Shown piece after piece: positions 42,400 to 56,885 of a stretch of DNA of 64,000 nucleotides; position 1 is the stretch's first letter; each line of letters starts with the position of its first letter. Location: assembly GCF_029962485.1 (NCBI RefSeq), contig NZ_CP073638.1, positions 1,798,001-1,862,000 of the forward strand, given 5' to 3'. The notes under the pieces are model-generated. The model was not told the DNA's origin, did not search any database, and saw only the letters and a program-made list of their open reading frames with translations. The translations under genes were made by a program, and so were the position numbers. This DNA comes from Burkholderia cepacia. GTDB taxonomy: Bacteria > Pseudomonadota > Gammaproteobacteria > Burkholderiales > Burkholderiaceae.

Positions 42400-44715
42400 T
42401 CAGATCTTCGCGGTCAGCGTGATCCCGACCGTGCGCGGATCGCCGTAGAGCACCGGATACGCGCCATATGACGGCAGCAGCTCGAGTTTCTTGTAGACCT
42501 TGTTCGTCAGGTTCGTCACGTAGCCCGTCACGATGTACTTCTGGTTCGGCGTCGTGTACGACACGTGCGCGTTCAGCACCGTATAGCCTCCTTGCCACAA
42601 CTGCGGCATCGTCTGCCGCGTCGCGCTGAAGTACTCGCGGCTGCGGTAGTTCACGTCGCCGCCGGCCGTCAGCGTGCCGAACGACACCGGCACGCGATAG
42701 TCGAAGCCCGCGTTCAGCGTCGTGTGCGGCGAACGCGCAAACGAGTTCCCGACGGCCGTCGGCACGTAGCGGAACTCCGTGTAGCGCGTGTTCAGCATCC
42801 CGAGGTTCGCGAACAGGTACAGGCTGTTGACCGGCTGTGCCTTCAGCTCCAGCTCGAAACCGTCCGCGCGCCCCTGCCCCGCATTCGACAGCGTCGACAC
42901 CGGCGGCCCGCCGAACGGGTTCGGCGCGAGCGCGAACACCTGGATGTCACGATAGTCGTAGTGGAACACGCTGGCGTTGACGATCAGGCGCTTGTCGAAC
43001 CACTCGCTCTTGATGCCGACCTCGTAGTCGGTCAGGTACTCCGGCGACACGGTCGACACCGTGCTCTGCGTATAGGCGTTGCCGTTGTAGCCACCCGAAC
43101 GGAAACCGCGCGCATAGCGGAAGTACGCGCGTACGTTGTTGCTGAGCGCATATTCGGGCGTGAGATCCCAGGTCGGCGCGCGCCACGTGTTCGTCTGGTT
43201 CTGCCGCGCGCTGACCGCGAGCGGCGACGACACCGACGATGGCGACCACCAGCTGTTCGGATCGCTGAACGTCACGTTGCCCGTATCCTGCAGCCCGGTC
43301 AGGTTGATGGTCTTGCGCTCGATCGTGTAGCGCAGCCCGCCCGTCACGTTGAAGCGGTCGGTGAACCGGTACTTCACGCTGCCGAAGATCGCCGCGCTCT
43401 GCGTGTGCTGCGTGAGGTCGGTCAGGTGATAGTACGCGGGCGACGGCGAACCCGGCAGTCCGCCGCCGGCGCCCTGCTCGGCCAGTTGCTCCGTAAACAG
43501 GTGCGTGCCGACAAGCCAGCTCAGCCGGTCGCTCTGCGGCGATTCGAGCCGGAATTCCTGCGAGAACTGGCGGCTCGACAGGCGGTCATGTGAACGCGCC
43601 GCGTCGAACGGCGAGTAGTCCTCGTCGTCCTGGTACCAGCGGTGCAGCCCTTCGAACGCGGTGATCGACGTCAGCGACACCGCCGGGTTGATGCGCCAGT
43701 GCGCGGTCAGCGACGTGCCCCACGACGAGATGTGATCGCTCGACGGCGCATTGAGCGACACCGTGTACGGATCGCTCGACCCGACGAAGCCGAACTGGTT
43801 CGCACCGCCGCGTCCCGCGCCTTCCGCGTGCCACGCGTTGCCGCCGCCCGTGTAGTTGCGGCCGTGGATATTGAACAGGAAGTCGGTGTCCGACGTCGGC
43901 ACGGCGAGCACCTGGAAGCGCACCGCGTTGTCGTGGAAGCCGCCGAAACGCCCCTGCTGCACGGTGTTCGTGTAGAAGCTGTCTGCATTCTCGTGATACA
44001 CCGACACGCGTGCGGCCAGCACGTCGTTCTTGCCGATCGGCCCGCCGATCGCGGCTTCCGCGAGCCGGCTGTTGTACTGGCCGAGCCCGAGCTTGCCGTA
44101 GCCGCTCACGTCGAAGGTCGGCTTCTGCGACGTGATGCTGAGCGCACCGCCCACGGTATTCTTGCCCCACAGCGTGCCCTGTGGCCCGCGCAGCACTTCG
44201 ATGCGATCGAGGTCGAACAGCGGAAAACCCTGCCCGAACACACTGTTGATGTACACGTCGTCGAAGTACACGCCGATCGGGCTCAGCGACAGGTCCGACG
44301 GATCGTTGCTGCCGACCCCACGCAGGAACCAGCGCGGCCGTTCGCGGCCCTCGGTCGACTGCCCGGTGAAGTTCGGCACGTACTTCGTCACGTCGTTGAT
44401 CACGCGCAGTTCGTTGTTCTTGATCGCATCGCCGCTCAGCGCGCTCACCGCGACCGGCACGTCCTGGATGCTCTCCTTGCGCCGGCGCGCCGTCACGGTC
44501 ACCGTGCCGAGGTTCGTTTCGCGTGCGGCCGTGGCGCGGTTCGCGCGCGCCGGCTTCGGCGCAGCCACGACCGCGTCGTCCTGTGCCTGTTTGGCCGGCT
44601 TCGCGCCCGGCGAGCCCGCCGTCGACGCGCCGTCCTCTGCCCACGCCGGCAACGATACGGCGCCGCCCGTCAGCAGTCCCCCCAGCGCGGTGACGATTAG
44701 TTTTTTCCTGAACAT
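42400..44715 (-). CDS. TonB-dependent outer-membrane receptor
   Basis: A 771-aa outer-membrane receptor. It has a signal peptide (KKLIVTALGGLLTGGAVSLPAWA), a TonB box region LGTVTVTARRRKESIQDVPVAVS, a plug domain (about 75-185; GVYFDDVYINSVFGQGFPLFDLDRIEVLRGPQGTLWGKNTVGGAL) and a beta-barrel to the end. Its motifs (RRKESIQDVPVAVSALSG, FDDVYI) resemble receptors for carbohydrates and aromatic or sulfonated organics rather than typical siderophore receptors. A sigma-54 promoter lies upstream, and TonB/ExbB/ExbD plus desulfurising enzymes are encoded next door, so an organosulfur substrate is likely. The start at 44715 follows AGGA. Confidence 0.9.
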   Translation of the reverse strand: MFRKKLIVTALGGLLTGGAVSLPAWAEDGASTAGSPGAKPAKQAQDDAVVAAPKPARANRATAARETNLGTVTVTARRRKESIQDVPVAVSALSGDAIKNNELRVINDVTKYVPNFTGQSTEGRERPRWFLRGVGSNDPSDLSLSPIGVYFDDVYINSVFGQGFPLFDLDRIEVLRGPQGTLWGKNTVGGALSITSQKPTFDVSGYGKLGLGQYNSRLAEAAIGGPIGKNDVLAARVSVYHENADSFYTNTVQQGRFGGFHDNAVRFQVLAVPTSDTDFLFNIHGRNYTGGGNAWHAEGAGRGGANQFGFVGSSDPYTVSLNAPSSDHISSWGTSLTAHWRINPAVSLTSITAFEGLHRWYQDDEDYSPFDAARSHDRLSSRQFSQEFRLESPQSDRLSWLVGTHLFTEQLAEQGAGGGLPGSPSPAYYHLTDLTQHTQSAAIFGSVKYRFTDRFNVTGGLRYTIERKTINLTGLQDTGNVTFSDPNSWWSPSSVSSPLAVSARQNQTNTWRAPTWDLTPEYALSNNVRAYFRYARGFRSGGYNGNAYTQSTVSTVSPEYLTDYEVGIKSEWFDKRLIVNASVFHYDYRDIQVFALAPNPFGGPPVSTLSNAGQGRADGFELELKAQPVNSLYLFANLGMLNTRYTEFRYVPTAVGNSFARSPHTTLNAGFDYRVPVSFGTLTAGGDVNYRSREYFSATRQTMPQLWQGGYTVLNAHVSYTTPNQKYIVTGYVTNLTNKVYKKLELLPSYGAYPVLYGDPRTVGITLTAKI

Positions 44716-44775
44716 CGATGAGTCATCCTGTTTGATCGGTTGAACGCACGTGCGAGCTACGCACGGGTTCTCTCT

Positions 44776-55776: not shown

Positions 55777-56885
55777 CGTCGCAGCCGCGCGTCGGCGTCG
55801 CTCGCGTCGCGCGGTTTCAGGATGCCGAGCTGCGCGAGCCGTGCGCGCACGATGTTGCGCGACTGGTCGAGCAGGCGTGACATGCGCAGCTGGTTGTGCT
55901 CGCTGTAGTCGAACACGCTGCGGTAGACGGTGTCCTCGATGTGCTGCCACAGCGCCGGCGTGCCGAGATCCAGCAGCTCGATCACCGCGTGACGCAGCGC
56001 ATCGGTCGCTTCGGCCACGTCGCGCGCACGGCGCGGAGGCGCCGCGGCCACGCCCGGCGCATTGGTCGTGTCGGGCGCAAGCGACAGCGCCGAGAACTGC
56101 AGGTCGCCGACGTCGATCGCTCCGCCCGCGCAGATCAGCATCGCGTGGTGGATCACGTTTTCGAGTTCGCGGATATTGCCCGGCCACGCGTGCGCGTGCA
56201 GCCGTGCGCGCGCGGCGTCGGTCAGCGTCGGCGCGGTCACGCGCAGCCGCTTCGCATAGGTGTCGATGAAGTGCTCGATCAGCGGTGCAATGTCGCCGGG
56301 CCGCTCGCGCAGCGGCAGCAGGCTCAGTTTCACGACGTTGAGCCGGTAGTACAGATCCTCACGGAAATTGCCCGCGCGCACCGCGGCTTCGAGATTCACG
56401 TTGGTCGCCGCGACGAGCCGCACGTCGATCTTCACGGTCTTGCGCGAGCCGACCGGCGTCACCTCGCGCTCCTGCAGCACGCGCAGCAGCTTGACCTGCG
56501 CGGACAGCGGCAGGTCGCCCACTTCATCGAGAAAAAGCGTGCCGCGATTCGCGGATTCGAACCAGCCGGGCTGGCTGTTGATCGCACCGGTGAACGCGCC
56601 GCGCTCGTGGCCGAACAGTTCGCTTTCGATCAGCGTTTCCGAAAACGCACCGCAGTTGACCGCGACGAACGGGCCGTCATGGCGCTCGCTCAGCGAATGC
56701 ACGAGGCGCGCGATCAGCTCCTTGCCGGTGCCGCTTTCGCCGGTGACGAGCACCGTCGCATCGCTCGGCGCGACGAGCTGGATGCGTTCGAGCAGCACCC
56801 GCGATTTGGGATCGTCGAACGTCAGTGCCTTCGCGCGGATCGTGATCGCGTGCGAAGTCGGGTCCGGCAAGCTGAAGATGGCCAT
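55767..56885 (-). CDS. Sigma-54-dependent activator, SfnR-like
   Basis: A 372-aa enhancer-binding protein with almost no N-terminal sensory domain. The AAA+ core begins by residue 20: Walker A GESGTGKE (49-56), the sigma-54-contacting GAFTGA (96-101), Walker B TLFLDEV (116-122) and the R-finger region FREDLYYRLNVV. A Fis-type helix-turn-helix ends the protein (HNQLRMSRLLDQSRNIVRARLAQLGI). This layout is that of SfnR, a sigma-54 activator of organosulfur use in Pseudomonas that is controlled by its own expression. Five sigma-54 promoters surround it in this window, making it their likely regulator. Start ATG 56885. Confidence 0.88.
   Translation of the reverse strand: MAIFSLPDPTSHAITIRAKALTFDDPKSRVLLERIQLVAPSDATVLVTGESGTGKELIARLVHSLSERHDGPFVAVNCGAFSETLIESELFGHERGAFTGAINSQPGWFESANRGTLFLDEVGDLPLSAQVKLLRVLQEREVTPVGSRKTVKIDVRLVAATNVNLEAAVRAGNFREDLYYRLNVVKLSLLPLRERPGDIAPLIEHFIDTYAKRLRVTAPTLTDAARARLHAHAWPGNIRELENVIHHAMLICAGGAIDVGDLQFSALSLAPDTTNAPGVAAAPPRRARDVAEATDALRHAVIELLDLGTPALWQHIEDTVYRSVFDYSEHNQLRMSRLLDQSRNIVRARLAQLGILKPRDASDADARLRRQA

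Follow-up and report, generated by a model that had tools for sequence, protein, structure and literature searches.

A strain-variable, putative sigma54-controlled organosulfur-scavenging island with catalytic-looking and non-catalytic-looking DszB-like proteins in Burkholderia cepacia

A 64-kb stretch of Burkholderia cepacia DNA (contig NZ_CP073638.1, positions 1,798,001 to 1,862,000; this whole stretch is called the window here, and coordinates refer to it) harbours a sulfur-scavenging island of 15 genes (Table 1). This island is genuine and unusually complete, and it belongs to a widespread type. We consider it likely that this is a strain-variable, sigma54-controlled island for the scavenging of organosulfur compounds, in which an SsuD/MsuD-like monooxygenase dependent on reduced flavin mononucleotide (FMNH2), here LLM, and two proteins similar to the desulfinase DszB, D1 and D2, would release sulfite, while a third such protein, D3, would be a non-catalytic paralogue. 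A conserved and probably non-catalytic desulfinase branch is the most interesting part of the island. All gene parts named in a preliminary description of this region were found within 42400-56885, with family matches far above chance, and the organosulfur-scavenging role proposed there is compatible with the family make-up of the parts.

DszB represents the slow step of 4S biodesulfurisation (PMC12168087, in part). DszB-like proteins turned out to be common in Proteobacteria, where they are linked to uptake via TonB and to promoter sites for sigma54, and both catalytic-looking and non-catalytic-looking branches are present in the family investigated here. The island is a source of new enzymes to test, and it provides an example in which the input of a sigma54 activator without sensor domain could be studied directly.

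Extent, distribution and relatives of the island

The island was delimited as a unit of presence and absence by an empty site in one genome called the same species (G057), whose DNA aligns with the window as far as 42325 and then anew from 59372, the two matches being 29 bp apart (6509 to 6539 of locus L091), and in which no D3 relative was found at E<1e-40. In G021, also devoid of a D3 relative at this threshold, the left match ends at 42327, the right side being unmatched in the stretch compared. The end at 56885 given previously was thus too short, the blastn ends of the unit being 42326-59371, and because G057 lacks this segment, the aldolase-fold gene and the secreted esterase gene belong to the island. 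These two genes, the boundaries of the unit and the sigma54 promoter sites go beyond the earlier account. Genes for a LysR protein and an M20 hydrolase (40040-42317) were rejected as members, both being present in G057 and G021. D3 relatives at E<1e-40 occur in 20 of 61 Burkholderia genomes, and D3 with at least 93% identity in 18 of the 61, own genome included. The own genome comprises 7.7 Mb in three contigs; the D1 and D3 encoded there share 96-98% identity with their counterparts in, among others, B. arboris, B. lata and B. cenocepacia. No tRNA was found in 40000-62000.

A scan of GTDB genomes yielded 508 stretches encoding a relative, of which the best 80 were kept, corresponding to 75 loci on which the locus counts below are based. 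Much of the gene set recurs in Paraburkholderia, Massilia, Jeongeupia, Sphingomonas and Pseudomonas, namely DszB-like copies, LLM, receptor, periplasmic sulfonate-type binding protein (SBP), two permeases, aldolase-fold gene and MFS carrier, with the activator or TonB/ExbB/ExbD recurring in part of the loci; the island can therefore not be called new in the sense of unique, as had been suggested. One DszB-like copy was found in 13, two in 34 and three in 29 of 76 stretches (window included). In a shorter form (L030, L039, L041) D2 and D3 are kept, and D1, the MFS carrier and TonB/ExbB/ExbD were not seen in the stretch. In a Pseudomonas relative (L071, 3315-8324) an acyl-CoA-dehydrogenase-like protein and two ABC exporter-type proteins adjoin the LLM and DszB-like genes. 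No description of such an island was found by title or abstract in the open-licence PMC literature, and the excerpts of PMC12316311, PMC12581299, PMC6395730, PMC13352529 and PMC2996968 contain nothing on it. The name 'lapdesf', that of a possible known relative, led to unrelated papers only.

Fold, active site and phylogeny of the DszB-like proteins

In a check set beforehand, DszB was the top structural match of the D1 and D3 models, with the best SsuA lower by about 7 Z units (6.8 and 7.7) and 24-27% identity to DszB in the structural alignments; the earlier grouping with DszB is thereby supported for these two, and for D2 by sequence match only. It could be argued that the DszB-like proteins are no enzymes but cytosolic carriers or ordinary binding proteins of the NMT1/SsuA fold, as Pfam and NCBIfam returned only NMT1 and SsuA_fam, the latter under its cut-off. 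This appears quite improbable in view of the distance between DszB and SsuA in both models, of an N-terminus that, judged by eye, is not signal-peptide-like, unlike that of the neighbouring SBP, and of the active-site residues Cys/His/Arg in 126 of 168 relatives.

The active site of DszB contains Cys27, His60, Arg70 and Gly73 (PMC12168087, in part). All four are kept in D1 and D2, whereas D3 displays Ser, Ile, Arg and Gly, so that, on its residues, D3 is not classed as a desulfinase, and three desulfinases, as assumed previously, are not upheld. Besides the 126 Cys/His/Arg triads, the 168 DszB-like frames of window and loci, many Burkholderia rows of which are near duplicates, comprise 20 Ser/Ile/Arg, 13 Ser/His/Arg, three Gly/His/Arg, two Cys/Tyr/Arg, two Arg/Tyr/Arg, one Ser/Ser/Arg and one Ser/Tyr/Arg. 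A Cys/His/Arg copy co-occurs in 39 of the 40 stretches with a non-Cys copy, the exception (L032) being a 5.5-kb contig.

A tree of 106 rows less than 80% identical was supported by the Shimodaira-Hasegawa-like approximate likelihood ratio test (SH-aLRT, a quick method); Ser-type rows are over-represented in it, since part of the rows came from a protein search with D3 as query. D3 is placed within an 18-row clade with Ser27 throughout (SH-aLRT 99), and the next larger set, with 21 further rows around D1, reached 97. Position 27 changed at least six times on this tree, a count that gives no direction, and five times on a smaller one; Ser occupies it in 22 of 24 non-Cys rows. His60 was retained in 81 of 82 Cys-type rows versus 6 of 22 Ser-type rows, and Arg70 in 20 of the 22. 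The Fisher value for coupling of positions 27 and 60 (4.5e-13) ignores relatedness; when relatedness was considered, six independent pairs remained, with a mean of 2.7 changing the same way and none the other, which is not significant (p at best 0.25). Within the Ser27 clade, one branch (P0023, P0040, P0050, P0054 and others, Janthinobacterium included), which makes up 11 of the 120 proteins listed, carries Gln60 and Ser73, so that the neighbouring loop has changed too.

Ratios of nonsynonymous to synonymous substitution rates (dN/dS) were 0.059-0.200 for D3 and 0.067-0.158 for D2 (seven comparisons each) and 0.080-0.183 for D1 (four usable comparisons; L028, L030 and L039 were dropped, as no D1 could be found there and a paralogue had been matched instead). 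By this measure all three are under purifying selection, and because it acts on D3 as on D1 and D2, D3 is not a decaying gene. As fold and sulfinate-anchoring Arg are kept and the nucleophile is lost, D3 is most likely a non-catalytic paralogue which binds but does not cut. Conceivably, D3-type copies are active instead, either by using Ser as nucleophile or by acting on another substrate: Ser prevails among the non-Cys rows as if it mattered, Arg70 is largely kept, and D3 is under purifying selection. However, the loss of His60 in most Ser-type rows reads as a lost catalytic constraint, even though the relatedness-aware test was not significant, and, according to the title of PDB entry 2de3, crystals of a C27S mutant of DszB contained the substrate. 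We regard such activity as unlikely.

The monooxygenase

LLM is closest to MsuD/SsuD, with SfnG (E=1.7e-29) and DszA (E=6e-12) farther off, and reaches 314.8 bits with TIGR03565, under the equivalog cut-off of 518.2. In agreement with the preliminary description, neither a DszC-type partner nor a close DszA was present, LLM being much nearer to MsuD/SsuD, and no oxygenase family other than LLM was found in the 15-gene island. The sulfonate-binding motif of MsuD consists of W195, R225, R296 and S/A299 (PMC8234197, in part). Three of these four positions (W195, R225 and R296, assigned by motif on the alignment) are kept in LLM and the fourth is Pro, which favours an anionic sulfur group as the putative ligand without fixing the substrate.

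Promoter sites and activator

Each of the five transcription units, that of the receptor included, has a predicted sigma54 promoter site in front of it (Table 1), and these sites are conserved among the stretches aligned, many of which are close relatives. The motif is missing upstream of the receptor gene in L030 only, and the site of the esterase gene scored 10.3, below the threshold of 11. Across 58 loci, 89 of 180 first genes had a strong site upstream, compared with 15 of 198 inner genes and 526 of 7560 random positions; 17 Burkholderia loci were omitted from this count as near duplicates, and whether a gene counted as 'first' was decided from the tagged genes alone. The evidence for sigma54 is conservation together with position, as single sites alone prove little.

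Palindromes resembling activator sites lie between the divergent promoters. Of the 15 relaxed sites in the genome, two have the perfect form TGTTGC-N4-GCAACA, and both of these belong to the island, each between divergent promoters; only this form is confined to the island, a relaxed copy being situated outside at 2016. Genome-wide, TGYTGC-N4-GCARCA was not enriched (15 sites versus 18 for a control pattern). The palindrome is not general, because it was absent with up to one mismatch from eight of ten loci examined outside Burkholderia and Paraburkholderia; in the remaining two it occurs once, far from tagged promoters (L023), and twice, one copy preceding the LLM promoter site by about 125 bp (L073).

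SfnR has the layout of a sigma54 activator without sensor domain. The island's activator begins almost directly with its AAA+ domain; as a sigma54-interacting AAA+ protein without N-terminal regulatory domain it resembles SfnR, as proposed earlier, in layout. The steps of SfnG, MsuC and MsuD and the grouping of sfnR are described for the dimethyl sulfone system of Pseudomonas (PMC8234197, in part). An RpoN transcriptome of Paraburkholderia phymatum lists sulfonate genes, not tied to the island (PMC5979394, PMC5748707, both in part).

A sensor role of D3-type copies

An activator without regulatory domain of its own could receive its signal from D3-type copies, if a disabled DszB-like protein bound a sulfinate or sulfonate and thereby controlled it. 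The activator gene is present in 30 loci, in 25 of which the DszB-like copy closest to it deviates from Cys/His/Arg (distances were measured from stop-to-stop frames); deviant copies lie less than 500 bp from it in eight loci (L023, L024, L055, L026, L031, L061, L064, L075) and stem from three places in the trees, and the C27S structure of DszB mentioned above retains its substrate. However, 18 of the 30 loci belong to Burkholderia or Paraburkholderia, which share one inherited order with three genes between D3 and the activator gene, and outside these genera the nearest copy deviates in 7 of 12. Shared ancestry accounts for part of the pattern. Moreover, the nearest copy is of the Cys type in L044, L050 and L059; in L064 and L075 the activator gene has an even closer Cys-type copy on one side and an Arg/Tyr/Arg copy on the other; and the deviant copies of L026 and L031 have retained Cys27, their only change being at His60. 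In the LLM operon of the Pseudomonas loci the Ser-type copy comes after that of the Cys type, and among the Pseudomonas stretches an activator gene was found for L073 only, 6 kb off. Proximity makes the sensor role testable but does not show it, and we rate it as rather unlikely; the wider idea that non-catalytic copies arose repeatedly and serve as cytosolic ligand sensors for a sigma54 activator devoid of a sensor domain is likewise doubtful. If true, the fold of an enzyme would have been turned into the input module for the very regulon that produces the enzyme.

Uptake and proposed pathway

The island encodes a receptor together with all three proteins of a TonB-ExbB-ExbD system. An iron or siderophore uptake island might be suspected, as the receptor matches siderophore-receptor models, but each match is under its cut-off, and the 17-kb unit also contains LLM, DszB-like and ABC parts, all of sulfonate or desulfinase type, which the receptor accompanies in other genera as well. 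This reading was set aside as extremely improbable.

In the favoured pathway a secreted esterase would trim the compound outside the cytoplasm. Going by the protein families, the receptor, driven by the island's TonB/ExbB/ExbD, would carry it over the outer membrane, and either the MFS carrier or the ABC unit of SBP and two permeases over the inner one. In the cytosol LLM would split the C-S bond by oxygenation, and D1 and D2, judged by their intact DszB catalytic set and fold, would hydrolyse a sulfinate, yielding sulfite and a desulfinated product. The aldolase-fold protein might handle the carbon remnant, D3 would be a binding paralogue, and the activator would turn on the five units via the five conserved sites.

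Several points weigh against this pathway. Acting on a sulfonate, LLM would itself free sulfite, which leaves the need for D1 and D2 unexplained; acting on a sulfone, it would not obviously need its kept sulfonate-binding residues. It carries Pro at the Ser299 position and Asp for His227 of MsuD, and no flavin reductase was found among the 15 genes. Ser27 of D3 is possibly a different nucleophile. Of 14 sigma54 sites scoring at least 11 in the window, nine lie outside the island and five inside. Finally, no ABC ATPase gene is located beside the permeases, the activator gene overlapping the end of permease 2; SBP and permeases of the ABC transporter described earlier were recovered, but not an adjoining ATPase gene. 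Unlike in the Burkholderia island, an ATPase gene directly follows the permeases in L023, L029 and L080. The best match to the L023 ATPase in the own genome (54%, C2:1248985) lies about 0.6 Mb off in a second SBP-permease-permease-ATPase set.

Table 1: Features of the island in window coordinates; start codons were picked by eye.
Feature	Position	Strand	Remarks
Whole accessory island	42326..59371		present/absent unit of about 17.05 kb; empty site in one genome (G057)
TonB-dependent outer-membrane receptor	42400..44715	-	Plug E=3e-17, barrel E=3e-35; start at MFRKKL
sigma54 -24/-12 site, receptor gene	44776..44791	-	TGGCATCCGAATTGCA; in 15/16 aligned upstream stretches incl. window
MFS carrier	44908..46125	-	E=8e-17
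D1, DszB-like	46122..47186	-	Cys/His/Arg kept; match to DszB (2de2/2de3) E=1.2e-18
ExbD	47221..47634	-	PF02472 E=2e-28
ExbB/TolQ-type proton channel	47631..48347	-	with TonB and ExbD
TonB	48389..49192	-	with ExbB and ExbD
D2, DszB-like	49226..50272	-	Cys/His/Arg kept; match to DszB (2de2/2de3) E=9.8e-14
LLM, SsuD/MsuD-like FMNH2-dependent monooxygenase	50323..51495	-	profile and sequence matches
sigma54 site, LLM operon	51566..51581	-	TGGCACACCGCGTGCT; core invariant in 20/20 aligned intergenic stretches incl. window
Two activator-site-like palindromes, TGYTGC-N4-GCAACA	51731..51776		between divergent promoters
sigma54 site, D3 operon	51852..51867	+	TGGCCCGGAACTTGCA; TGG and TTGC invariant in 20/20, same alignment as LLM operon site
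D3, DszB-like	51936..53012	+	Ser27/Ile60 (DszB numbering), Arg70 and Gly73 kept; match to DszB E=2.1e-12
SBP	53044..54150	+	signal-peptide-like N-terminus by eye
ABC permease 1, SsuC-like	54150..54965	+	SsuABC importer type
ABC permease 2, SsuC-like	54988..55776	+	end overlapped by activator gene
sigma54 activator without N-terminal sensor domain	55767..56885	-	AAA+ domain almost at the start
Class II aldolase/epimerase-fold protein	57006..57686	-	adjoins the set in many genera
sigma54 site, aldolase-fold gene	57758..57773	-	TGGCACGATTGCTGCT; in 8/8 aligned stretches incl. window
Perfect palindrome, TGTTGC-N4-GCAACA	57861..57876		between divergent promoters
sigma54-like site, esterase gene	57986..58001	+	TGGTTCAAAACTTGCG; TGGTTC and CTTGC in 8/8 incl. 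window
Secreted esterase/lipase	58063..59346	+	GQSQGG motif; start at MTLLPL, signal peptide by eye

Neighbouring genes

Directly right of the island a gene for a GroEL-type chaperonin (59792-61432) is located, which is also found at the empty site of G057, and of which further copies exist elsewhere in G057 and G021. About 7 kb of other DNA separate the parts homologous to 61461 and 61551 of the window in G057 (L091, 8629-15762), and this genome lacks 35888-37758 of the window, so that the neighbourhood is variable at further places. A sulfatase (31050-33236), a sulfatase modifier of the formylglycine-generating type (29984-31084) and an MFS carrier form a likely second sulfur-scavenging unit near the island (29984-34595). 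On the minus strand (17753-23672) a hydantoinase A/B (oxoprolinase) fusion of 1238 aa, an MFS carrier and a D-glutamate cyclase suggest a 5-oxoproline/D-glutamate pathway.

Comparison with known systems

With DszB (PDB 2de2/2de3) the island proteins share the fold (models of D1 and D3), the four active-site residues (D1 and D2) and an N-terminus without signal-peptide character; they differ in that up to three copies occur, D3 has lost Cys27 and His60, and the DszA and DszC partners of the 4S pathway (DszABC) are lacking. The SBP and permeases are of the same type as in the sulfonate importer SsuABC, although the Burkholderia island has two different permeases and no ATPase gene. SsuD/MsuD provided the best PDB and profile matches of LLM, which retains W195, R225 and R296 but stays under the NCBIfam cut-offs, has exchanged Ser299 and His227 for Pro and Asp, and has no adjoining reductase gene. 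Compared with the sfn/msu dimethyl sulfone system of Pseudomonas with its SfnR, the island has no MsuC-like gene and possesses desulfinase-like proteins and TonB-energised outer-membrane uptake in addition, while both have in common a sigma54 activator without sensor domain, an LLM enzyme and the scavenging of sulfur.

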